Source: Candidatus Gastranaerophilales bacterium (GTDB lineage: Bacteria; Cyanobacteriota; Vampirovibrionia; Gastranaerophilales; Gastranaerophilaceae). Taken from it: 64,000 nucleotides of DNA. Location: contig CALUSB010000002.1 of the NCBI GenBank assembly GCA_944323335.1, forward strand, positions 1 through 64,000, written 5' to 3'. The stretch's first letter is position 1. Each line of letters begins with the position of its first letter. Under the pieces are notes generated by a model. The model made no database searches. It had not been told where the DNA came from and saw only the letters and a list, made by a program, of their open reading frames with translations. A program made the translations under genes and the position numbers. Of this stretch, positions 6,992-63,995 are shown piece by piece.

Positions 6992-8293
6992 TTAGCGAGA
7001 AATTTCTTCAAATAACGGTAAAAACTCAGGAAATGATGTGTTTATCCAGACAAAATCATTTACTTTGACAGGGTTATTGCAAACAAGTCCCGCAACAAAA
7101 TAGCTCATAGCAAGTCTGTGGTCAAGGTGTGTTTCAACCTCGCAGTTGCCTTTTAGTCCCTTTTTATTGCCGTAGATTATAAACCCGTCCGGTTTTTCAT
7201 CAATTTGAACGCCAATTTTTATAAGACCTTGAGATAGTGCACTAATCCTGTCAGATTCTTTGTTTCTTAGGTCTGCAGCATCTTTTACAATCGTTTCGCC
7301 ACTGGCGCATGACGCAAGAATTGCAATTATGGGTAATTCGTCAATTAATCTCGGTATAATATCGCCTGAAATCTCGCAACCCTTAATATCCGGACTGTAT
7401 GACACCTTGATGTCACCTGTTTTTTCATTTGAGATTGTTTTTTTATCTAAAATCTCATAATTTACGCCCATTTTGTCAAAAACATCTAAAATCCCTGTGC
7501 GAGTCGGGTTTAGTCCGACATTTTTTATAATAATTTCGCTATCAGGAACAATTGCTGCCATAACCATAAAAAACGCTGCTGACGAAATATCGCCCGCAAT
7601 TTCTATGTTTTTTGGTACGAGTTGAGATTTTTCAATAGTGGTGAAAAATCCGTTTTCGTCTTTGCCTGTTTGTATTTGAGCCTCAAGGTATTTAAACATC
7701 CTCTCCGAATGGTCGCGAGAAAGAGTATCCTCCCATACTGTTGTTTTACCTTGTGTGTTCACTCCTGCAAGTAAAATGCAAGACTTAACCTGAGCTGACG
7801 CTATAGGACTTTTGTACTGTATTGGTTTTAGTTTTGTGCCCTCAATTTCAAGCGGGGCCCTAAAGTTGTCGGATTTAATCTTTGCACCCATAAGGCTTAA
7901 GGGTTCAATCACCCTTTTCATGGGGCGTTTAGATAGGCTGGCATCTCCAACTAGAGTGCTTGTAAAATCTTGAGAAGATAACATGCCTGATAAAAGCCTC
8001 ATTGAAGTGCCCGAGTTGCCGCAATCAAGAGTATTTTTGGGCGCAGAAAAATTTTTTGGAGCATTTAAAATAAGTGTGCGCTCGTCAATAAAATTAACCT
8101 CGCAGCCGAGATTTTTTATAATTTCAAGGGTTGCTCTGCAGTCTGCGCCAAAGGAGAAATTGGAAATTTTAACCCTGCCTCCCGTTTGTGCAGCGAAAAT
8201 AAGACTTCTGTGCGAGATAGATTTATCAGAAGGTATAGTTATAGCTCCTCTTAATCCTTTATTTGGTTTTTGACTTATGCAGTAATTACTCAA
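6992..8293 (-). CDS. aroA: 3-phosphoshikimate 1-carboxyvinyltransferase (EPSP synthase)
   Basis: A 433-residue shikimate-pathway enzyme joining shikimate-3-phosphate and PEP. Visible motifs are IPSDKSISHR (20-29), NSGTSMRLLSG, the KESDR-type stretch NKESDRISAL and DHRLAMS. The start must be the TTG at 8293: the reading frame is conserved from residue 10 onward and there is no ATG, GTG or later TTG before the first motif. That TTG overlaps the speE stop by 8 nt, and AGGAG abuts it without normal spacing, so translational coupling to speE is likely. The metallophosphatase follows. Confidence 0.95.
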   Translation of the reverse strand: MSNYCISQKPNKGLRGAITIPSDKSISHRSLIFAAQTGGRVKISNFSFGADCRATLEIIKNLGCEVNFIDERTLILNAPKNFSAPKNTLDCGNSGTSMRLLSGMLSSQDFTSTLVGDASLSKRPMKRVIEPLSLMGAKIKSDNFRAPLEIEGTKLKPIQYKSPIASAQVKSCILLAGVNTQGKTTVWEDTLSRDHSERMFKYLEAQIQTGKDENGFFTTIEKSQLVPKNIEIAGDISSAAFFMVMAAIVPDSEIIIKNVGLNPTRTGILDVFDKMGVNYEILDKKTISNEKTGDIKVSYSPDIKGCEISGDIIPRLIDELPIIAILASCASGETIVKDAADLRNKESDRISALSQGLIKIGVQIDEKPDGFIIYGNKKGLKGNCEVETHLDHRLAMSYFVAGLVCNNPVKVNDFVWINTSFPEFLPLFEEISR

Positions 8294-9128
8294 CTCCTGC
8301 TATTTCCTTTACAAAATTTGGTACATCAAAAGATGAGGTCTGTATTCTTGCGTTATAAATTTTACAAAGTTTTGAAATCTCATCTGCTCTTTGTTTGTCA
8401 ACTTTTTTGTGGCAATGCGGTACTTCAACTTCATCAGAGCAAAAAGCCCATGACCAGTAGCCGCCGGGGTATGTAGGAATCGGGCCGCAGTAAGGAGCTA
8501 CATTTTTAAAGACTTTTTTCAAGAGTTTATACATCTTACCCATTTCAACAACATTTGCAAACGGTGATTCGGACTGAGGAACAACTATCCCTCCTTCACG
8601 CAGCGAATTTTTAACATTTGTATAAAATTCTTCCGTAAACAGTCCTTCCCCTGGGCCCATCGGGTCTGTTGAATCAATAAGAACAACATCATAGCAGTTT
8701 TTCTTGTTTTTTATGTATTCTATTGCATCTTCAACAAAAATCTTAACTTTAGGGTCATTAAGTCCGCAAGAAATTGTAGGGAGGAATTTTTTGCTTGCTT
8801 CAATTACCATGCCGTCAATTTCACACATTTCAATACTTTTAACGGATTTATGTTTTAGTACTTCTCTTACCGTGCCGCCGTCGCCGCCACCTATTACAAG
8901 GATATTTTCAGGGTTTTTGTGTGCAATAAGAGGGATGTGAGAAATCATTTCATGGTAGAAAAATTCATCTTTCTCGGTTGTCATCATAAGGCCGTCAAGT
9001 GTTAAAACATTGCCTAAACCCTTGCTTTTAAAAATTTCAACTTCTTGAAATTCGGATTTGTCTTTAAATAATGTTTCTTCTTTCTCTATTGCAACTCCGT
9101 AGTGCAGCTGGTTTATTTCATGGTACAT
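8286..9128 (-). CDS. speE: Spermidine synthase (polyamine aminopropyltransferase)
   Basis: A 280-residue enzyme that transfers an aminopropyl group from decarboxylated SAM to putrescine. It shows the N-terminal beta-hairpin domain (LTLDGLMMTTEKDEFFYHEM), the dcSAM-binding VIGGGDGGTVREV (78-90), the catalytic DSTDPMGPGEGLF (152-164) and SPFANV. AAAGGAAG lies before the ATG. It heads the minus-strand unit with aroA and the metallophosphatase; SAM synthetase is 23 kb away. Confidence 0.95.
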   Translation of the reverse strand: MYHEINQLHYGVAIEKEETLFKDKSEFQEVEIFKSKGLGNVLTLDGLMMTTEKDEFFYHEMISHIPLIAHKNPENILVIGGGDGGTVREVLKHKSVKSIEMCEIDGMVIEASKKFLPTISCGLNDPKVKIFVEDAIEYIKNKKNCYDVVLIDSTDPMGPGEGLFTEEFYTNVKNSLREGGIVVPQSESPFANVVEMGKMYKLLKKVFKNVAPYCGPIPTYPGGYWSWAFCSDEVEVPHCHKKVDKQRADEISKLCKIYNARIQTSSFDVPNFVKEIAGVE

Positions 9129-48267: not shown

Positions 48268-51200
48268 ATGGTTTTTTGGCTTAAAAACAATTTAAAAAAG
48301 ATTTTAATAACACTGGGGGGTCTTATAGCCCTTATTATTGTTCTTTATTTATCTTTAGGGTTGATTGTTACCTCTTTTTTGGATGTTGAAAAAATACAAT
48401 CATCGATAAAAAAAGCAACCGGACTTGATATCCTTCTTGAAAAGCCTGCTATTAAGACTATGCCTGACCTGTCGCTTGTTATAAAGGCAAATGACCTTAA
48501 AGTGGGCATAAAAAGCGAGAATAAAGTTTTTTTTGCCGCAAGTAAACCCAACTTAAGAGTAAGGGTTCTTCCTTTTTTATTTAAAAAGTTATCCGTAGCG
48601 GAGTTTGAGTCTGACAAGCTCAAAATTAACGTATCAAGAGATAAAAATTCTGTTTTTGATTTTGAAAAATTTTTGCCAAAAGAGGTAAAAACTCCCCTTA
48701 AACTAAGTTTTTCTAATACTAAAGTAAATGTAAATAAAGCAGATGTAGAATTTTTAGACTATAAACAGTCAAAAAAAGTACTTTTAAGCTCTGATAATTT
48801 TAGAATTTTTGAATATTCCGACAACAAAAAAATAAAGTCTGATGTTAGTGCTTTATTTAAAATCTGTGACTTAAACACAAGTGTTTGCAATGTTTCGGAA
48901 TTGTCTTTAAAATCAGACTTGAAACTGCCTTTAATTAAACATATTGATGAAGATAAAAGTTATCTGGATATGTCATTTGGCGATTTTTCTTTATCTTCAA
49001 TCAGCCCGTATGTAAATGAATTTTCTCCGATTAAATTTAAAAAATTTAGCGGCAATATTGCTTTTGATACCAAAAAGATTGAGGGTGTTTACAGGACAAA
49101 CATCAAAACAAAATCGATTGATGTTGAATTTCCGTATAACAATAAAAAAAGTAATATCCTGCTGGAGGGAATTTCTAACGGAGTATTTAAAACTAAATTT
49201 GAAAATGATAAAGTACTTATTTCTGATTCGTCATTTGTATCGGACGGTATAAATACCGAGTTTTCAGGTGAGATAAAAAAATACAAAACAAAAAAACCCT
49301 CGCCAAATCTTGATATAAAAATCAATAACAGTGACTTTTTAAAACTTGTGCAACTTGTGCCCGCGGGATTTGTTGTCTATAAAACAGATGTAATTAATGA
49401 ACTTATAAAAGCTCGCCCATACGCCCGAGTTGAGGGAGGACTTAATATTTCAAAAAACTTTACAACGCCTGATGTTACGGGAAGTTTAAAGATTTTTGAT
49501 ATTTATCTGTTTAGTAAACCCGTAGGTTTTTCTCCTGCTGTTGCTTTGTGTGATTTTATCGGTGATAAGGTAAAAGTAGACGTCAGAGTTGACGCTCCGA
49601 ATTCTCAATATGTCAAAGTCAAGGGTGTATCAGAACTCTATGGCAGACAATCGGGCGAATATGACATTATATCTTCTGAAAACGTAAATCTTGCTTTTGC
49701 TCATAAGTATCTTATTCCCGTTCAAAGAGTAATTGGCTTTAAACTTGGGCCACTGCCTTTTATGAAAATTGAGGGCAGCGGAAAAATTCATATTGTTGCA
49801 AAAGGCACAATTTATGATGCTCTTGTTGACGGTAAGTTCTTTGGTAAAAATATAAAAGCATCTTTAGACGGGCTAAATGCTCCTTTGTCTGATGGGAAAA
49901 TTGAGCTTGATTTTAACGGTAAGGTAATAAATATCGTAAATACTTCCGCAAAAATCTTTGACGGTACATTTTTAATTTCAGGTTTTGCTGATGATTACGG
50001 GAATATTAATATAAAATCTGATGTAAAAAATGTTTCCGCCAACAGTTTGCTTGCAGCTGCAAAAACAAGTGAAATCATAAAACCCAGAACGGGCGATTTA
50101 TCAAAAATAAAAAGTGCAAAAGGAAAGTGTGACCTTAGTGTTATTTTAAAAGGAAAAGCAAAAAGCCTTGAGGGGCTTGATTTTCTTGATGATATTTTAC
50201 CTGCAGGTAATATCGTATTTAAAAATGTTGCTGCGGTTATTTATCCTAATATTAAGGTGTCGTCAACTAACGGGGAAGTTATTTTTGACAAGGATTACAA
50301 AATTAATCTAAAAACTCTCTACAAAAACTCTCGGGTGGCGGTTAACGGTATTTTAACACCTGATAAACTCGATTTGTCGGATAAAAACACAAAAGTAAAA
50401 GTTGATGTTGTATCTGATGCAGAGAAAATGCGCTACAGTGACATTTTAGAGCTTGTGCGTGAGCAAAATTATTTTAACGATAAAAACTTAAAGTTTGCAA
50501 TAAATCACCTGCCGCTGGGCGCTATTGATTTTATTTTTGATACAAAAATTGCAGCCAAGGGTACAATTCCAGTGCAATTTAGTCTTAAGGATTTGTCAAA
50601 ACTTTCTCTTGACGGCTCTTTTGCACCTCTGAACAGTGAATTTTCAAAAAATATAAAGTTTAAAAGCGGCACATACAAAATCGAAAAACAAAAGATAAAA
50701 ATACAAAATTCTAATATTTCGGTATTTAATTCAAATATTTACTCTAATGGTACGCTGGAAAATATATTCTTAAAACCGCAGCTAAACCTTGCACTTAAGG
50801 CACAATCAGTTCCAATGAGTAATTTAGGTGGAATGTCGGAGTATACTAATATTGCTTTCTTTAAGTCTTTACTGTCCGATTTTACGGATTATAAAGGCAG
50901 TGCAAATATTGATGTTAATGTTAAAAAGAATATTCCAAGGGGGCGTATCACTTTTGATAATGTTAGTGCATATAACTCCAAACAAGAGCTTTCTCTTGTT
51001 TTAAAAAGCGGCGGGATAAAGTTTTTGGGCAATAAACTTATAATTGACGCACTTAATTTTGCATACGGCAATACTCCTTTGTATTTTAATGCATCAGTTC
51101 AAAATTACCTGAGTAAGTACCCTGTCTTTAGTGCAACATTTACCACAAATATAGACGAAGTAGCTGCAGATAAGCTTATTAACCCGTATTTAACATATCC

Positions 51201-52809
51201 GCTAAAGGTCAGAGGTGAGGTAATTTTAAAAGGTAAAATAAAAGGCGGGCTAAATGATTATTCGTTATTTACCAATTTAGAGCTGCCAAAAGATACCGAT
51301 ATTTCATATATGGGCGCTAATCTTGGCGATTTGAACTATGATAGAGAGTTTGATGCAAAAATTGATTTTTCAAAAAACACTGCAAAAATAAACGATGCTA
51401 AGTATATAAAATACGTTACTTCGCTTAATAACAAGCCTACGGCAGTAACTGCTCTAAAGGTCGATGGAAAAGTGGTTTCAAATTCAGCTAAGCTCTCTTT
51501 TGATAATTTGCATATAGTTACACCAAGTCCGCTTACCGCTAGGATTTTTAATGTAATATTTAAAAAATCAGTTCTTAAACAAGGTCAGTTTAGTTGTGAT
51601 ATGCGCTTAAACGGCAATGTCCTTATGCCACATGCGACCGGAGAAATTAAATTTAGGGATATCAATATTCCTCTTTATAACACAAAAATTAACGATATGG
51701 ATTTTGATATCAAAAAAGATGTCATCCATGCAATGTTTAGAGGAAAAACTTTTGATTCTGACGTTGATATAACAGCCGATATAAAAAATAAACAGACTTT
51801 TCCTATTGTGTTAAACAATCTCGATATAAAATCCAAAAAAACAAGTCTGTCAGGTTTGTTTGAGGGAATTTCTCAAATTCCTAGAGGTTCATCCGACATA
51901 GTTCCCGACCAGCCTATTGTCTTTAGACCGCAAGACCTTGTAGTGCTAAAAGGAAGTGCTTTTGCTGATGTGGTTGAGTTTAACAACATAAAAGCAACGG
52001 ATATGAAAGCAAGTTTTTCTAATCCTACAGGTTTTGAGTTTAATATTGATAATATAGAGTTTGATATTGCAGGAGGCAAGGTTGTTTCAAAGGGTAAGTT
52101 TGACGTTGTATCGCTGCTTTTTGATATTGACTCTCTTGTTTATGACTGTGATGCAAATTTACTTTCAGATAGTTTCTTGGGACTTAAAAATCAAATATTT
52201 GGCAGAGCAAATGCAAAGATTAACCTAAGCGGTAAGGTGCCGCAAAGTCCGGAGGATATAAAATTTGTCAACGGCAGAGTAGAATTTAGCGTAAACGAGG
52301 GTAAAATGCCAAAACTGGGCTCTTTGGAATATCTTTTAAGAGCAGGTAATCTCATTAAAAGCGGATTATTCGGACTGACACTAAATAACCTGATTGAAGT
52401 GTTAACGCCCTACAAAACAGGTGAATTTTCAACAATTAGGGGTAATTTTAAGCTTGCCAGCGCAAAAATAAATTCGCTTGAAATATTTTCAAAGGGTAAA
52501 AACCTGAGCTTATTTATTTATGGTAACTATGACATTATTAATGATGATGCCGACATAGAAATATTAGGCAGATTATCAAAAAATGTCAGCAATGTTTTAG
52601 GCAGATTTGGCAATGCCTCAATTAATTCCTTATTCAATGTATTAACGGGTAATAAGATAAAAGAGGGTGCAAAAAAACAAATAATAGATAACGTAAATAA
52701 AATTCCTCTAATTGAAATATCAGGAGATGACTACAGATTATTTTTGGCAAAAATTAAAGGAAAGCTGAATTCTGATGATTATGTGAAGAGCTTTAACTGG
52801 TTGAACTAG
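48268..52809 (+). CDS. AsmA-like envelope protein 2, 1513 aa
   Basis: A 1513-residue protein with a single N-terminal transmembrane helix (about 10-32, ILITLGGLIALIIVLYLSLGL) and a very long periplasmic beta-rich region, in the AsmA/TamB-like group (DUF3971/AsmA-2-like C-terminus). The C-terminus, from TGEFSTIRGNFKLASAKI to DADIEILGRLSK, matches AsmA-like protein 1. Length is enough to span the periplasm, consistent with a bridge-like lipid carrier. It is divergent from the TonB/ExbBD run and followed 87 nt later by a TPR lipoprotein gene. Specific substrate is unknown. Confidence 0.85.
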   Translation: MVFWLKNNLKKILITLGGLIALIIVLYLSLGLIVTSFLDVEKIQSSIKKATGLDILLEKPAIKTMPDLSLVIKANDLKVGIKSENKVFFAASKPNLRVRVLPFLFKKLSVAEFESDKLKINVSRDKNSVFDFEKFLPKEVKTPLKLSFSNTKVNVNKADVEFLDYKQSKKVLLSSDNFRIFEYSDNKKIKSDVSALFKICDLNTSVCNVSELSLKSDLKLPLIKHIDEDKSYLDMSFGDFSLSSISPYVNEFSPIKFKKFSGNIAFDTKKIEGVYRTNIKTKSIDVEFPYNNKKSNILLEGISNGVFKTKFENDKVLISDSSFVSDGINTEFSGEIKKYKTKKPSPNLDIKINNSDFLKLVQLVPAGFVVYKTDVINELIKARPYARVEGGLNISKNFTTPDVTGSLKIFDIYLFSKPVGFSPAVALCDFIGDKVKVDVRVDAPNSQYVKVKGVSELYGRQSGEYDIISSENVNLAFAHKYLIPVQRVIGFKLGPLPFMKIEGSGKIHIVAKGTIYDALVDGKFFGKNIKASLDGLNAPLSDGKIELDFNGKVINIVNTSAKIFDGTFLISGFADDYGNINIKSDVKNVSANSLLAAAKTSEIIKPRTGDLSKIKSAKGKCDLSVILKGKAKSLEGLDFLDDILPAGNIVFKNVAAVIYPNIKVSSTNGEVIFDKDYKINLKTLYKNSRVAVNGILTPDKLDLSDKNTKVKVDVVSDAEKMRYSDILELVREQNYFNDKNLKFAINHLPLGAIDFIFDTKIAAKGTIPVQFSLKDLSKLSLDGSFAPLNSEFSKNIKFKSGTYKIEKQKIKIQNSNISVFNSNIYSNGTLENIFLKPQLNLALKAQSVPMSNLGGMSEYTNIAFFKSLLSDFTDYKGSANIDVNVKKNIPRGRITFDNVSAYNSKQELSLVLKSGGIKFLGNKLIIDALNFAYGNTPLYFNASVQNYLSKYPVFSATFTTNIDEVAADKLINPYLTYPLKVRGEVILKGKIKGGLNDYSLFTNLELPKDTDISYMGANLGDLNYDREFDAKIDFSKNTAKINDAKYIKYVTSLNNKPTAVTALKVDGKVVSNSAKLSFDNLHIVTPSPLTARIFNVIFKKSVLKQGQFSCDMRLNGNVLMPHATGEIKFRDINIPLYNTKINDMDFDIKKDVIHAMFRGKTFDSDVDITADIKNKQTFPIVLNNLDIKSKKTSLSGLFEGISQIPRGSSDIVPDQPIVFRPQDLVVLKGSAFADVVEFNNIKATDMKASFSNPTGFEFNIDNIEFDIAGGKVVSKGKFDVVSLLFDIDSLVYDCDANLLSDSFLGLKNQIFGRANAKINLSGKVPQSPEDIKFVNGRVEFSVNEGKMPKLGSLEYLLRAGNLIKSGLFGLTLNNLIEVLTPYKTGEFSTIRGNFKLASAKINSLEIFSKGKNLSLFIYGNYDIINDDADIEILGRLSKNVSNVLGRFGNASINSLFNVLTGNKIKEGAKKQIIDNVNKIPLIEISGDDYRLFLAKIKGKLNSDDYVKSFNWLN

Positions 52810-57397: not shown

Positions 57398-57842
57398 CCT
57401 TTTTGTCTCAATAAAACGGTTTTATTACCTGAAAATTTTAAGGCGTAAATATTACCGCAGCGGTAAGTGCAACTGTTGCGGGCGTTGTTGTGAAAAAATT
57501 TATGTTAAACATGGCAAAAATATAATAAAAGACGAGGAATTGTTTAAAAAACTAAAGACCATGCATTCTTTTTATGAAGATTTAGAGGTTGTTGATAAGG
57601 ACGACACGGGTCTTGTGTTCAGGTGTAATAATCTCGATTTGGAAACAAGAAAATGTAAAATCCATAAACACAGGGCGAAAATTTGCAGAAACTACCCGCA
57701 GGAAGAAATTTTTATGATGGGTGCACAGTTAAGCGAGGATTGCGGATATTCTTTTACTCCAATTGTTCCTTTTAGTGAGGTGTTTCAAAGGGTTCTAAAA
57801 TCTAAAAAATCAAATTCTGACTGCAAGTTTTTTATTGAGTAA
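57381..57842 (+). CDS. YkgJ-type cysteine-cluster protein
   Basis: A 153-residue protein of the zinc/iron-chelating YkgJ family. It has GKCNCCGRCC (about 28-37) and CNNLDLETRKCKIHKHRAKICRNYP, the CxxCxxC...C...C pattern, with a further DCGYSF near the end. The family probably binds metal; no precise role is established. It overlaps the upstream gene by 17 nt and folP (opposite strand) by 11 nt. Confidence 0.82.
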   Translation: MSLLHNLFVSIKRFYYLKILRRKYYRSGKCNCCGRCCEKIYVKHGKNIIKDEELFKKLKTMHSFYEDLEVVDKDDTGLVFRCNNLDLETRKCKIHKHRAKICRNYPQEEIFMMGAQLSEDCGYSFTPIVPFSEVFQRVLKSKKSNSDCKFFIE

Positions 57843-58974
57843 AAATTGTTCCAAACTTGATTGCCTCAATATTTTTTTTGACATTATGTACCCTTATGCA
57901 GTCTACTCCTTTTTGGGCAAAATAAGCACTGGTGTATGCTGTTATGTCATCTGCATCTTTTGGATTGTCAACATTTGCTAATTGTCTTAAAAATCTCTTC
58001 CTTGAAGTTCCGACAAGCATTTTATAGCCCATACTTTTAAACTCTTCTATTCTTTGCATAAGTTCAATATTTTGCTCATAATTTTTTGCAAAACCAAAAC
58101 CTACATCAATAATAATATTTTGTGCTTTAATCCCACTCTCAAGTGCCAGTTTACATTGAGTTTTAAGTTCCCCATAAACTTCATCAACAAGATTTTTATA
58201 ATTGCACATGTTATCCATATCGGATGGATTTGAGCGAGAGTGCATAATTACAACTTTGGCGTCAAATTGAGCAATGGTTTTTGCCATATCCTTGTCATAC
58301 CTTAAGCCCGATACATCATTTATAATATCAACACCGAGTTTTAGGGCGGCAAGTGCCGTTTTTGAATTTCTTGTATCAATACTTATTTGCATGCTTGGAT
58401 GTTTTTCTTTTATGTATTTGATGACAGGTATTATTTTTTCTGTTTCAATGTCGGGGTTTACGCTCAATGCGCCGGGGCGGGTGCTTTCTGCGCCTATATC
58501 TATTATTTTTGCACCTTCTTGTATCATTTTATCAACCTGAGCACAAGCACTATTGTAGTCCGGATACTCTCCGCCGTCTGAAAAAGAGTCCTCTGTCAGA
58601 TTTAAAATACCCATAATTTCGCTTTTTGCCTGATGTTTTGAATGAAGTATCATATTTAAAATTTCATCGCTTAATTTTGGAAGCGAAAGCGGTTGTTTTC
58701 TTAATTTTTTTGATACTTCAATAAGCTGAGAATAGCTGCCGCTTAGCACGCAGTCCGTTTTTTCCACTTTGCAGTCAATTGAGTTTTTGTGTACGGCACA
58801 ATCACAGTCGCAAGATAGGGCGGTTTGTTTTAGGATATTTGCCTCAAGCGCCCTTAGGTCAAATATTTTTATATTTAAAAATTTATGCTTATTTGCGCCT
58901 ATAGATACGTACTCGGGGCTAAAACCGGTGTTTTTTATTTCCTGTTCTACAAAGTTTTTTGAAATAATTTTCAT
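57832..58974 (-). CDS. folP: Dihydropteroate synthase with N-terminal extension
   Basis: A 380-residue protein. The C-terminal 265 residues are a TIM-barrel dihydropteroate synthase: IMGILNLTEDSFSDGGEY, IIDIGAESTRPGA and IDTRNSKTA bind pterin and p-aminobenzoate. The first 115 residues are an extension of a type known from Firmicutes folP variants (LKQTALSCDCDCAV...LRKQPLSLPKLSDEI), here with five cysteines in a short block. It may carry metal or be a structural appendage. folE and folK are not nearby. Confidence 0.9.
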   Translation of the reverse strand: MKIISKNFVEQEIKNTGFSPEYVSIGANKHKFLNIKIFDLRALEANILKQTALSCDCDCAVHKNSIDCKVEKTDCVLSGSYSQLIEVSKKLRKQPLSLPKLSDEILNMILHSKHQAKSEIMGILNLTEDSFSDGGEYPDYNSACAQVDKMIQEGAKIIDIGAESTRPGALSVNPDIETEKIIPVIKYIKEKHPSMQISIDTRNSKTALAALKLGVDIINDVSGLRYDKDMAKTIAQFDAKVVIMHSRSNPSDMDNMCNYKNLVDEVYGELKTQCKLALESGIKAQNIIIDVGFGFAKNYEQNIELMQRIEEFKSMGYKMLVGTSRKRFLRQLANVDNPKDADDITAYTSAYFAQKGVDCIRVHNVKKNIEAIKFGTIFTQ

Positions 58975-59048
58975 GGTTAAATTGCATTTTTCTTTTTACT
59001 ACATATAATAGAATAACATCAAAGTAATATTTTTAGGAGATTAATAAA

Positions 59049-59336
59049 ATGGCTGAAACTACCATCATCAAATTAAACGCTCAAGAGCGCGAAGCGGATA
59101 AAAACCCCCGTCAATTAAGAGCTGCTGGTCTTGTTCCTGCGACTGTTTACGGTAAGGGAATGGAGTCAAAAAACATTCAAGTATGTGCTCATGAGTTTGA
59201 AATGAATACCAGAAACAACCGTGATGCGGTTATTGAGCTTACTTTAGGTAAAGAAAAATTAAATGTAGTTATTCAAGAATTACAAAAAAATTACTCAACA
59301 AATCAAATTTTAAATATTGAATTTAAACTTGCTTAA
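59049..59336 (+). CDS. rplY: 50S ribosomal protein L25, short form
   Basis: A 95-residue L25, matching the single-domain type that binds 5S rRNA. It has the READKNPRQLRAAGLVPATVYG start region and the VVIQELQKN strand. The CTC-type C-terminal domain is absent, as in E. coli. TTAGGAGA precedes the ATG. A terminator follows. Confidence 0.9.
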   Translation: MAETTIIKLNAQEREADKNPRQLRAAGLVPATVYGKGMESKNIQVCAHEFEMNTRNNRDAVIELTLGKEKLNVVIQELQKNYSTNQILNIEFKLA

Positions 59337-59772: not shown

Positions 59773-60141
59773 ATGTTTTTGAAATTTCTAGTGTCTATGG
59801 CGAAAAATGTTAAACTTTTTTTGAATAATGATTTAATTTGCTCTGAGTGCAAATTTGCTCTAGGTTTTTTTGACAGGCTTTTTGGGTTAATGTTTCTAAA
59901 AAAGCCTAATTGTCAGAAGGTTTTGATTTTTAAAAACGCTCCTTGGATTCACTCGTTTTTTGTGTTTTTTAAGTTTGATGCAATTTTTCTTGACGGTGAT
60001 TTTAGAGTGATAGCTTATAAATGTAATATTCCACCATTTTCAATTTTAAAACCTGTTTTTAATTCAACTTATACACTTGAAGTTGTAAACAAGTGCTTTG
60101 ATTTTAAAATTGGTGATAAAATACTTATTGATGAGCACTGA
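59773..60141 (+). CDS. DUF192 family protein
   Basis: A 122-residue protein of the DUF192 family, with ALGFFDRLFGLMFLKKPN, APWIHSFFVFFKFDAIFLDGDFRVI and the GDKI end. Family members are often exported and their role is not known. No signal peptide is clear; ATG 59797 is an alternative start. A TATTAT lies 5 nt before the ATG at 59773, so the mRNA may be leaderless. It overlaps uvrC by 11 nt. Confidence 0.75.
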   Translation: MFLKFLVSMAKNVKLFLNNDLICSECKFALGFFDRLFGLMFLKKPNCQKVLIFKNAPWIHSFFVFFKFDAIFLDGDFRVIAYKCNIPPFSILKPVFNSTYTLEVVNKCFDFKIGDKILIDEH

Positions 60142-61795
60142 TATTAAACAGCAAATAAAACTTATGCCAAAACTCCCGGGGTGTTATCAGTATTTTGATA
60201 AGACGGGTGAAATTATCTATATCGGCAAAGCAAAAAACCTCTACAATCGTGTAAATAGTTATTTTGTGGGCAAAAAAGAATCCCCCAAACTTCAGGTTAT
60301 GGTGCCTCAGATTGTGAGAGTTGAATGTATTGTTGTAAACAGTGAAATTGAAGCGCTTATTTTAGAGTCTGAATTAATTAAAAAACATAAGCCAAAGTAT
60401 AATGTTTTACTAAAAGATGATAAAAAATTTCCCTATTTTCTTATAACTGATGAAGAATACCCGAGAATTACGGTGGTCAGAAAAGCCAATAAAAATATGC
60501 TTAAGGGTAAGTACTTTGGCCCTTATACTGATTCAAGGGCAATGTATTGCACCCTTGAAACGCTTGGCAAAATATTTCCCCTAAAAAAATGCAAGACGCC
60601 AAAGTTTCGCTCAAGACCTTGTCTGTATTATGACATAGGTCAGTGCAGCGCACCTTGTCAGAAGTTGATTTCAAGTGAAGATTATAAAAAAATCCTAAAG
60701 GATGTTGAGCTTTTTTTATCCGGCAGACAAAACGAGCTTTTAAAAGTTTTAGAAAACGAGATGAAAAAGGCGTCTGAAAATCTTGAGTTTGAAAAAGCAG
60801 CCAGATATCGTGACAGCTATAACGACATTAAAAAGACCATGGAAAAGCAAAAAGTGGTCAGTGAAAATACAAGAATTAATCAGGATTTTGTCGGTATTGC
60901 AAAGTCTGAAGCGCTTTATTGTGTAAGTATCTTGCAAGTTAGACAGGGAAGATTAATAAATAAAAAAGACTTTACTTTCTCTCACATTGCTAATTCTCAG
61001 GTGAGCGATTTAAGTGAAATAATTTATGCGGTTTTAAGAGAATACTACGGGATTATTACAGATACTGAAATTCCTACAAAAATCACCCTTTCTATGCTGC
61101 CCGATGACATTGAACTGTACCAAAAGTGGCTAAGCGACAGGCTGGGTAAAAAAGTTGTAATTAACGAGGCAAAATCTCAGCGCGACAAAGAAATGCTGAA
61201 TATGGCTCAAAATACTGCCGCCTTTAACCTTGAGCAGGCAAAATTAAAAGAGCTTACCGTTATTCAAAACGAATACAATGAAGTCGGAACGTATTTGATG
61301 GAAAAATTAAAACTAAGAAAATTTCCTCATACTATTGAATGCTACGATATATCTCATATTCAAGGAACAAATACAGTTGCTTCGGGTGTATTTTTTGAAA
61401 ACGGTATGCCAAAGAAGTCTAAATACAGAAAATATAAGCTTCGCACTATTGAAAAAGGTGAGGTGGATGATTTTAAGAGCATGCGAGAAATTCTAAGGCG
61501 CAGATTTTTACGAATTAAAAAAGGTGAAATTGAGCCAGCGGATTTAATAATAATTGATGGCGGCAAAGGGCAACTCTCAAGTGTAATCGAGGTAATGAAA
61601 GAAATGGGGCTAAACTTAGATATTGTTTCTCTTGCAAAGAGAGAAGAAGAGGTATTTTTGCCAAACTGTTCAAAACCTGTTATCTTCCCGCTAAATTCTC
61701 CTGCTTTGCATTTGTTTCAGAGAATAAGGGATGAAGCTCACAGATTTGCCATAACATTCCATAGGCAGCTAAGGTCAAAAAACATGACAAAATGA
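60131..61795 (+). CDS. uvrC: UvrC excinuclease subunit lacking the C-terminal HhH domain
   Basis: A 554-residue UvrC. The GIY-YIG nuclease domain (PGCYQYFD, IYIGKAKNLYNR, 16-40) cuts 3' of the lesion; the Cys-rich part, UVR motif (LEFEKAARYRD) and RNase H-like domain with ECYDISH, LIIDGGKGQ and DEAHRFA, which cuts 5', are complete. The protein stops 11 residues after DEAHRFAITF, just where family members go on into a tandem helix-hairpin-helix (HhH) domain of 50-60 residues. The stop is followed directly by the next promoter, so no remnant is read. The start is ATG 60131. It overlaps the DUF192 gene by 11 nt. Confidence 0.92.
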   Translation: MSTDIKQQIKLMPKLPGCYQYFDKTGEIIYIGKAKNLYNRVNSYFVGKKESPKLQVMVPQIVRVECIVVNSEIEALILESELIKKHKPKYNVLLKDDKKFPYFLITDEEYPRITVVRKANKNMLKGKYFGPYTDSRAMYCTLETLGKIFPLKKCKTPKFRSRPCLYYDIGQCSAPCQKLISSEDYKKILKDVELFLSGRQNELLKVLENEMKKASENLEFEKAARYRDSYNDIKKTMEKQKVVSENTRINQDFVGIAKSEALYCVSILQVRQGRLINKKDFTFSHIANSQVSDLSEIIYAVLREYYGIITDTEIPTKITLSMLPDDIELYQKWLSDRLGKKVVINEAKSQRDKEMLNMAQNTAAFNLEQAKLKELTVIQNEYNEVGTYLMEKLKLRKFPHTIECYDISHIQGTNTVASGVFFENGMPKKSKYRKYKLRTIEKGEVDDFKSMREILRRRFLRIKKGEIEPADLIIIDGGKGQLSSVIEVMKEMGLNLDIVSLAKREEEVFLPNCSKPVIFPLNSPALHLFQRIRDEAHRFAITFHRQLRSKNMTK

Positions 61796-61821: not shown

Positions 61822-62745
61822 ATGAATAGAATTAATGTGTGTTTATCGACGGATGATAACTATGTAAAATATGCCTCAAATGTTATTTTGAGTGCACTTT
61901 CCAATAAAAATCCCGATGATGAGTATAAGTTTTATATTTTGCATTCATCATTAAGTGATGAGTCTAAAAAGATTTTAGAAAGTTATGACGGGGTTGAGCT
62001 TTGTCCTGTAGACAGTGCAAATTATGCTCCCTATTTTAATAATTCAGCATGTCCTCATGTGGCTTTGCCGACTTTATACAGGTTGTCTTTACCCTCTATT
62101 TTAAGTGAAGTAGATAGAGTTTTGTATTTGGATTGTGACTTAATTGTTCTAAAGAGTCTTGCAGAGTTCTTTTCAACCGAGCTTTTAGAAAATCAATATG
62201 CTGCTTGTGTTCCTGATTCTTGCTATAAGGGACATATGAAAAGAATGGGCATGGAGGATAATGGTATAAATTTTTATTTTAATGCCGGTGTTTGTCTTTT
62301 TGACCTTGCCAAAATGCGTCGTGACAACATCGAAGAAAAGCTCTTTGATTATCTGAAGTCTAATTTTAAAAACCTTTTATTCTCAGACCAAGATGTTTTG
62401 AATAATGTGCTTAAAGGCAAAGTTAAGCAAATGGATGAAAAATATAACTTCATATCTCCGAATTTTTATTTTTCAAATGAAAAAGACGTTGTAATCGCTC
62501 ACTTTGCAGGCATTAAACCATGGCAGATTGGTTTTTATAATGTATATAGAGAGCTTTTTTGGAAATACCTTTCCATGACAGAGCTTGGAAAAACTAAAGA
62601 ACTTCAAGCACAAAAAAGAAAAGTACTTTTTATGCACAAGTGGTTTTGTCAGATATTGTGGCATATAAAAATGTACCCGCTGTTTTTCTTTAGAAAACGC
62701 AGACTTAATGATTTTATGAGAATTGTTAAAAAATCCGAATACTAG
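61822..62745 (+). CDS. Family 8 glycosyltransferase
   Basis: A 307-residue GT8 enzyme (LPS galactosyl/glucosyltransferase type). It shows NVCLSTDDNYVKYA near the start, the metal-binding DCD (104-106) in VLYLDCDLIVL, YFNAGVCLFDL and HFAGIKPW. It probably adds a hexose to a surface glycan such as LPS core. Its C-terminus is basic and hydrophobic (HIKMYPLFFFRKRR), typical of peripheral membrane attachment. It overlaps the GT6 gene on the other strand by 4 nt, tail to tail. Confidence 0.9.
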   Translation: MNRINVCLSTDDNYVKYASNVILSALSNKNPDDEYKFYILHSSLSDESKKILESYDGVELCPVDSANYAPYFNNSACPHVALPTLYRLSLPSILSEVDRVLYLDCDLIVLKSLAEFFSTELLENQYAACVPDSCYKGHMKRMGMEDNGINFYFNAGVCLFDLAKMRRDNIEEKLFDYLKSNFKNLLFSDQDVLNNVLKGKVKQMDEKYNFISPNFYFSNEKDVVIAHFAGIKPWQIGFYNVYRELFWKYLSMTELGKTKELQAQKRKVLFMHKWFCQILWHIKMYPLFFFRKRRLNDFMRIVKKSEY

Positions 62746-63545
62746 ACTTTGATTTTTAGTATTTTTGCTATTTTAATCATCCAATACTTAAAGGGTGTAA
62801 TTTTTGTGTCTGTAATGCCTCTTAAATAGTCAATGCCGCCGTATCTCCAATGTTTTTTATCAAGCAGCAGACCTTTTATGTTTTTTGTGTATCCCTTAAA
62901 CTTCCAATTCTCAGGTATTGCATATTGAGGTTGTATAATAAGCGGATTTTTGTCTAAAAGATATTTGTTTATATGACTTTCATCGTGCCAAGCAGCCATC
63001 ACTCCGTTTGCAAAATCTTCTTTCATATTATTTTCAAGAGCACGGCACATTTGGAGATATTCTTTTGTGCGGCCGCCGTGGACTCCGCCCATAAAGTAAT
63101 GTTTACCCTCGCCGTATGGAATATAGGCAAGAGACTTTGGATTTCTGTCGTACGGGTATTTTTCAGGATTACCCTTTAGCTTGTGATTTAGCCACAGGGT
63201 AGCACAAATGTAGCCGTTTTCTTCTTTTGGTATTATTTCATGGTCAATTGTGTCAACAAATTTCATATTTGCATTAAAGTGATACAAATAGTCAATATCT
63301 TTATAGAGTTCTTCATTGTCTGCAAAAAATGAAAATCTATCACAGGTGCTTTCGGGCCATCCTGAAGATTTTGCATATATTTTAACCACATCATTATTAT
63401 CTTGGTGTTCAATTTTTTCCGCATCGGTAAATACAAAAAATTTAAGATTATCATTAGGGAAAAGGTATTTTTTGGCGCTTGTATAAAATTCATCCCAAAA
63501 ACAAATATATCTGCCTGTTGCTACGTATAAAATCCCTATGTTCAT
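62742..63545 (-). CDS. Family 6 glycosyltransferase, bacterial NxN type (histo-blood-group A/B-like)
   Basis: A 267-residue GT6 enzyme, the family of human ABO transferases and bacterial relatives. It has IGILYVATGRY, VFTDAEK, SGWPESTCDRF, the NAN motif (91-93) where animal enzymes have the metal-binding DxD, FMGGVHGGRT (151-160), AAWHDESHINKYLL (184-197) and the end YGGIDYLRG. NxN enzymes are metal-independent. It should transfer Gal or GalNAc in alpha-1,3 linkage to a surface glycan; the sugar cannot be read. The start is ATG 63545, with AAAGGAG eight nt upstream; an upstream in-frame ATG lacks support. Confidence 0.92.
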   Translation of the reverse strand: MNIGILYVATGRYICFWDEFYTSAKKYLFPNDNLKFFVFTDAEKIEHQDNNDVVKIYAKSSGWPESTCDRFSFFADNEELYKDIDYLYHFNANMKFVDTIDHEIIPKEENGYICATLWLNHKLKGNPEKYPYDRNPKSLAYIPYGEGKHYFMGGVHGGRTKEYLQMCRALENNMKEDFANGVMAAWHDESHINKYLLDKNPLIIQPQYAIPENWKFKGYTKNIKGLLLDKKHWRYGGIDYLRGITDTKITPFKYWMIKIAKILKIKV

Positions 63546-63566: not shown

Positions 63567-63595
63567 ATTGTACATCATTAAGATATTTTTGTAAA
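63567..63595 (-). promoter_or_regulatory. GT6 promoter
   Basis: On the minus strand TTTACA (63595-63590), 17 nt, TACAAT (63572-63567). The leader of about 15 nt carries AAAGGAG before the ATG at 63545. It faces the promoter of the small lipoprotein gene. Confidence 0.6.
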
Positions 63596-63653: not shown

Positions 63654-63995
63654 ATGATGGTTGAAGCTATTAAAAATATTTTATATCGTGTGTTGTCAGC
63701 AGCTTTACTACTGTTATTTGTTTTGCCTTTGTACGCTTGTTCGGATGCTGCAAAAGTTATAAATACTCACGCCATGCCGGGACACAAGGTTTCTGATTTA
63801 ATGCAAAGAACAAACAGCTCTCAGACAATGAATAAGAAAGATTCACCGGTAAGTGTTACAAAATCAGGTGTTTATATATATAAAGACAATTCAACGGTAA
63901 ACACGACCGGATACAGATTTCAGGTTAAAGATAAAACCGATGTCGGGCCAAATGATGTAAGATTTGATGCGGAACATTTCAAAACAAGATATTGA
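63654..63995 (+). CDS. Small lipoprotein, 113 aa
   Basis: A 113-residue protein with an N-terminal signal (SAALLLLFVLPLYACSDA) and lipobox LYAC, so it should be a lipoprotein with Cys29 as the modified residue. The rest is polar (about 30-113), with SVTKSGVYIYKDNS near the middle. It is complete within the window; the stop TGA is at 63993-63995. A second ATG lies three nt downstream. No family recognised. It is divergent from the GT6 gene. Confidence 0.75.
   Translation: MMVEAIKNILYRVLSAALLLLFVLPLYACSDAAKVINTHAMPGHKVSDLMQRTNSSQTMNKKDSPVSVTKSGVYIYKDNSTVNTTGYRFQVKDKTDVGPNDVRFDAEHFKTRY

Follow-up and report, generated by a model that had tools for sequence, protein, structure and literature searches.

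An NxN-type GT6 glycosyltransferase with an altered acceptor-site residue at a housekeeping locus of gut Gastranaerophilaceae

The GT6 gene and its genomic setting

The Gastranaerophilaceae are non-photosynthetic gut relatives of cyanobacteria. The genome considered here (1.67 Mb) belongs to this family, and its named relatives include Candidatus Galligastranaerophilus intestinavium. The window, i.e., the whole stretch of 64,000 nucleotides that was analysed, carries on its minus strand an intact open reading frame of 267 residues (62742..63545), at the coordinates given by an initial annotation, which had described the product as a GT6 glycosyltransferase of the bacterial NxN type. This description is confirmed by matches to Pfam PF03414 (118 bits against a cut-off of 25, E 5e-34) and NCBIfam NF041524 (253.5 bits, cut-off 250), by PDB sequence matches, the best of which is BoGT6a of Bacteroides ovatus (1e-53), followed by human ABO (7e-27), and by the AlphaFold model described below. 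A phylogenetic tree, proposed by the initial annotation as a check, nests the protein within the bacterial GT6 enzymes (clade support 100/93). We consider its membership in the CAZy family GT6 practically certain.

An alternative ATG at 63578 would lengthen the frame by 11 codons (278 residues). The start at 63545 is preferred, since the ribosome-binding site AAAAGGAGT lies 8 nt upstream of it and the longer start would sit inside a promoter-like site (TTTACA-17-TACAAT; 63567..63595, minus strand); the 278-residue version was therefore dropped. The promoter-like site, a consensus match only, is the best on the minus strand in this region, and is considered weak because promoter-like matches were fewer than the shuffled mean. 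No Rfam match was found in the 64-kb window.

The GT6 gene lies tail to tail with a gene for a 307-residue GT8 glycosyltransferase (61822..62745, plus strand; PF01501, 127 bits), the only GT8 in the genome. This arrangement had been recognized earlier, and the two stop codons overlap by 4 bp (CTAG, 62742-62745). The convergent pair stands alone among housekeeping genes: uvrC (60131..61795, plus strand; profile match and synteny) forms the flank that fixes the locus, and on the other side a small lipoprotein-like ORF (63654..63995, plus strand; no family match), divergent from GT6, is conserved in the genus. A surface-glycan operon around GT6 was considered and rejected, the neighbours being uvrC, folP and an rplY-like gene, and then rsmH, ftsI and murE-like genes.

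All 15 searched genomes of the genus possess the GT6 gene. Where both flanks are available (11 loci), the order is folP, rplY-like, DUF192, uvrC, GT2 (in most), GT8 and GT6, followed by the lipoprotein-like ORF, a BlaI-like regulator and the rsmH-ftsI-murE region. The extra GT2 (EpsE-like) gene, situated between GT8 and uvrC in most members of the genus (7760-8746 in locus L032, and its equivalents), is absent from the window and from L031, L033 and L038. The same BlaI-like regulator adjoins GT6 in L047 and L206, which represent two further genera. Elsewhere in the window (48268-52809), a 1513-residue protein with a partial N-terminal DUF748-like match (43.9 bits, cut-off 50) is possibly an AsmA-like outer-membrane transport protein.

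Bacterial GT6 genes were thought by the initial annotation to be spread by horizontal transfer. Elsewhere in the family GT6 does have a scattered distribution (33 of 383 genomes, 14 of 41 genera), and several of the other family GT6s group with those of gut Alphaproteobacteria, as expected if they had moved horizontally; transfer is plausible for these genes. A recent import of the window gene itself from a gut bacterium (Bacteroides or a gut alphaproteobacterium), with chance placement at the present locus, would fit this general pattern but is highly unlikely. The clade of the window gene (16 rows including L043, in a tree calculated without L022/L206) is separate from those groups, occupies one locus in three genera and is core to its genus, and the only exchange suggested is between close relatives. 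The horizontal-transfer view thus applies to the family, and not to the recent history of the window gene outside its close kin. A phage origin was likewise rejected: GT6 is common in cyanophages and viral contigs, yet none exceeds 38% identity to the window protein.

A number of the remaining GT6 copies of the family are broken. Two same-locus relatives from other genera (L047 and L022) carry Gln in place of the catalytic Glu, a substitution that leaves 4e-5 of the activity in BoGT6a (PMC3961637). It might be argued from these cases that the window gene is also decaying or silent, with a product of little activity. This seems very improbable, as the window copy is intact, retains all of the catalytic residues, belongs to a gene found in all 15 searched genomes of the genus, and shows a dN/dS of 0.06 relative to the L031 copy (96% identity), indicative of purifying selection. 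The Gln-bearing proteins read HDQS and lie at the locus of the window gene (L047, 6001-6792; L022/L206, G039:C28); their Gln codons differ between the two genera (CAG and CAA). The GT6 gene of the window is real and its family already known; its acceptor-site residue and its fixed genomic setting are unusual.

Fold, donor site and acceptor site

The AlphaFold model draws on 40 relatives and reaches a mean pLDDT of 93.9. Its best Foldseek matches are all BoGT6a, followed by ABO; the superposition on BoGT6a gives a TM of 0.93 by BoGT6a length and an rmsd of about 1.5, at a sequence identity of 38-39%. The initial annotation had ascribed to the protein all landmarks of the family, and this holds for the fold, the donor site and catalysis; the acceptor side departs from it (Trp118, Pro131 and Ile238). 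The NAN noted at residues 91-93 in place of DxD (codons at 63267..63275, minus strand) is aligned to Asn95-Ala-Asn97 of BoGT6a. In the WHDES motif, Glu189 (62979..62981, minus strand) corresponds to the catalytic Glu192 of BoGT6a, and Lys230 corresponds to its catalytic Lys231. Thr10, Tyr13, Trp63, Thr67, Arg70, Gly154, Trp186-His187-Asp188 and Arg242 are also conserved, the donor-binding and catalytic roles being those described for BoGT6a (PMC3961637). The protein is very probably a metal-independent retaining transferase.

The donor-recognition tripeptide is Met152-Gly153-Gly154 (63084..63092, minus strand), aligned to codons 266-268 of human ABO. A-type enzymes carry LGG in human or AGG in vertebrates, and B-type enzymes carry MGA (PMC6351642); MGG therefore has the Met266 of B-type and the Gly268 of A-type enzymes, and by itself it is compatible with either Gal or GalNAc as the donor. 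A donor call from the tripeptide was accordingly given up, the tripeptides described there being AGG, LGG, MGA, GGA and HAA (PMC6351642). We would nevertheless favour GalNAc as the probable donor, since a Gly in third position can accommodate the acetamido group and the residues that touch GalNAc in BoGT6a (Asn95 and Gly157) are kept. The genome encodes GalE, a source of UDP-Gal.

The C-terminal tail (residues 248-267; 62745..62804, minus strand) is basic and amphipathic, forming a helix at 251-263 in the model. Its hydrophobic moment is the highest among all 14-mers, and the last 25 residues carry a charge of +5. The corresponding tail of BoGT6a is lipid-binding-like (PMC3961637).

On the acceptor side, three positions are changed relative to BoGT6a: His122 to Trp118 (codon at 63192..63194, minus strand), Thr134 to Pro131 and His239 to Ile238; a further difference is Ser66 at the place of Asn69. 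His122 is a contact residue for the sugar in the acceptor site of BoGT6a (PMC3961637, Table 2). Of 80 sampled loci, 49 have His at this position, 11 have Gln and 15 have Trp; all 15 of the Trp loci fall within the clade of the window gene and none elsewhere in the sample, and the window GT6 itself and L022 likewise have Trp. Pro at the Thr134 position is common, and occurs in GT11-linked GT6s too. The acceptor in the window's clade thus probably differs from that of BoGT6a and of the human A/B transferases. Trp118 and Pro131 lower the claim to an A/B-type enzyme, leaving membership in GT6 unaffected.

Association with fucosylation and the proposed reaction

The genome encodes Gmd (609 bits) and an Fcl (GDP-fucose synthase) which, at 468.7 bits, is below the curated cut-off of 500 but matches the PDB GDP-fucose synthetase at 7e-110. 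It also contains one GT11 fucosyltransferase, located among ribosomal and repair genes; no solved relative of this protein was detectable by sequence, so that its alpha-1,2 linkage is assigned by family. All 15 genomes of the genus have GT11, and 13 have Gmd above the cut-off, the other two being the least complete. With a GDP-fucose route and a GT11 in the genome, an H-type acceptor is feasible.

Across the family, GT11 occurs in 31 of the 33 GT6-bearing genomes, compared with 37 of the 350 without GT6 (Fisher 2e-24); when the window's own genus is left out, the figures are 16 of 18 versus 37 of 350 (5e-13), both p values being too small because the genomes compared are related. Outside the genus, 36 of 67 GT6 loci, from about eight phyla, have a GT11 gene no more than 6 kb away, and in 23 of the 67 it is either within 150 bp or fused. 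Single-ORF fusions occur in both orders: GT11-GT6 (L052, 3870-5366), GT6-GT11 (L089, 6085-7632; L099, 2098-3741) and GT6-GT11-GT2 (L107, 5992-8715). L093 and L097, the sampled loci closest to BoGT6a, have GT11 next door, and serve as a positive control for the linkage because BoGT6a acts on 2'-fucosyllactose (PMC3961637). From this co-occurrence, proximity and fusion we infer that Fuc-alpha1,2-Gal (H-type) structures are probably the acceptors of most bacterial GT6s, with an A/B-like trisaccharide as the product.

The fusions come from Gastranaerophilales, Planctomycetota and a spirochaete, and the spirochaete protein includes the GT2 domain; a narrow literature search found no description of them. 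In the Akkermansia-type proteins (L077, 1780-4143; L096, 3478-5841), GT6 forms the C-terminus of a 787-residue polypeptide, of which about 540 N-terminal residues match no Pfam family (scan of L077), and GT11 is in the preceding gene. Two phage records (H12 and H13; OR003938 and MN695335) have a cyanophage GT6 beside a GT11 or alpha-1,2-fucosyltransferase gene, and the same pair thus travels in phages.

The surface glycan assumed by the initial annotation finds a place in the genome rather than at the locus, which has no glycan cluster. The bacterium likely makes a surface lipopolysaccharide, as the genome contains a Kdo transferase, LpxK (read by eye in L118) and one O-antigen ligase/polymerase-type protein; a lipopolysaccharide sugar is for this reason the likeliest acceptor. 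We propose that the GT6 is a soluble, tail-anchored enzyme that would sit at the cytoplasmic face of the inner membrane, the basic tail presumably making the membrane contact. UDP-GalNAc (or UDP-Gal) would be bound without a metal, Asn91 and Lys230 taking over its role, and one terminal sugar, more likely GalNAc than Gal, would be transferred with retention, forming an alpha-1,3 bond to a galactose within a lipid-linked surface glycan, probably the lipopolysaccharide core or O-chain. This galactose would probably first be alpha-1,2-fucosylated by the GT11, as in most relatives of the enzyme, yielding an A/B-antigen-like trisaccharide; because of the His-to-Trp change, the precise acceptor would not be quite the one used by BoGT6a or the human A/B transferases. 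We assign this mechanism as a whole a probability of roughly 0.6, having counted against it the Trp in place of His122, the unlinked GT11, the ambiguous MGG and the Fcl score below the cut-off.

The enzyme could also retain alpha-1,3-Gal/GalNAc transfer of the GT6 kind while using a non-fucosylated or non-galactose acceptor (e.g., a beta-GalNAc or a lipopolysaccharide core sugar), in which case the GT11 would serve another glycan and the product could resemble the Forssman antigen or alpha-Gal, or bear no likeness to a host antigen. The restriction of Trp to the window's clade and its presence in all members of that clade speak for such a shift, as does the model, in which a helix (119-124) directly follows Trp118 in the region of the BoGT6a acceptor loop. 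The residue at this position also appears to track the acceptor: GT6s with Gln have a neighbouring GT11 in only 1 of 11 loci, as opposed to 32 of 49 for those with His. Furthermore, GT11 is not adjacent to GT6 in the window's genus. On the other hand, GT11 is present in all 15 genomes of that genus, L043, which also belongs to the Trp clade, has one at a distance of 1 kb, and the Gln sequences belong mostly to one family, the Moraxellaceae, rather than to many independent events. A shifted acceptor of this type is possible, though on balance unlikely.

An A/B-antigen reading of the window enzyme is plausible, and the earlier idea of a surface antigen is a reasonable hypothesis. The host-like caps that were also suggested go beyond the sequence, since the conserved acceptor-contact His is replaced by Trp in the window's clade alone and the MGG is ambiguous.

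Allelic exchange and relation to known systems

L033 is a close relative of the window (backbone, 0.055 changes per site). Synonymous differences per site between the two are 0.30-0.52 from folP through GT8, rise to 0.64-0.80 from GT6 through the ORF at 65288, and are 0.56-0.61 beyond it (z 3.8 for GT6 versus GT8, and z 12 for the block versus the left flank). At the protein level, identity to L033 is 67% for GT6, 91% for GT8 and 98% for UvrC. The gene is not a mutation hot spot, as it is no faster than its neighbours relative to L031. The block containing GT6 was probably imported by recombination in one lineage, a conclusion drawn from the step in synonymous divergence at the GT8/GT6 border and not from tree topology. 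The GT6 tree does put the window and L031 apart from L033; allele replacement from topology alone was dropped, as in the AU test the species grouping was still compatible with the data (p 0.15 with three rows, 0.09 with four). Relative to L038, window positions 57832-59336 (folP and rplY) show synonymous differences of 0.41-0.51, much closer than uvrC (0.69), and exchange may therefore be general in the genus rather than special to GT6.

A bolder reading, which we consider doubtful, would join these points: a fixed GT6 locus with ABO-like polymorphism, at which relatives swap alleles and the Trp118 clade makes a cap unlike host antigens. The swaps would alter Arg/Lys at BoGT position 73 and MGG/MSG at the tripeptide, such that the surface sugar varies; all of this jointly is improbable.

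Bacterial GT6 enzymes have hitherto been read as molecular mimicry gained by horizontal transfer. New here are a GT6 fixed throughout a genus at a single site among housekeeping genes, flanked by uvrC-GT8 and the murein and division genes, the association of GT6 with GT11 across the family and across phyla, the Trp-for-His change on the acceptor side, and the synonymous step at the GT8/GT6 border. Fixation at one old locus, together with a changed acceptor pocket, argues for a long-standing use of its own in this gut lineage. Whether or not a bacterial GT6 makes a fucosylated, A/B-like sugar can be tested simply from the genome, by its linkage to or fusion with GT11, and the Trp clade is a clean test case for the evolution of acceptor choice in the ABO family.

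Cyanophages (Prochlorococcus phage P-SSM2 and Synechococcus phages) also carry GT6, in some cases beside GT11; identity to the window protein does not exceed 36% in the named cyanophages or 38% in phage contigs from faeces, which argues against a near phage source. BoGT6a (PDB 4ayj, 4cj8), an A-antigen-type, metal-independent alpha-1,3-GalNAc transferase, shares with the window enzyme the full-length GT-A fold, the NAN motif, the catalytic Glu, Lys230, Arg242, Arg70, Gly154 and a basic or lipid-binding-like C-terminal tail, and differs at Trp118, Pro131, Ser66, Ile238 and in the donor triad (AGG instead of MGG). Unlike the Bacteroides relatives L093 and L097, the window GT6 has no adjoining GT11. 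The human ABO A/B transferases have the same fold (TM 0.68-0.75 by target length, 27% identity), the WHDES catalytic motif and the Y-x-GG donor tripeptide region, whereas the window enzyme has NxN instead of DxD and lacks a membrane anchor or stem; its Trp presumably occupies the position of the acceptor residue His233 of human ABO. Finally, E. coli O86 makes the B antigen with WbwK (GT11) and WbnI (GT6) (PMC4202792). As in that strain, a GT6 and a GT11 are combined in one genome or pathway, but both E. coli genes belong to O-antigen synthesis, whereas those of the present bacterium lie apart, among housekeeping genes.
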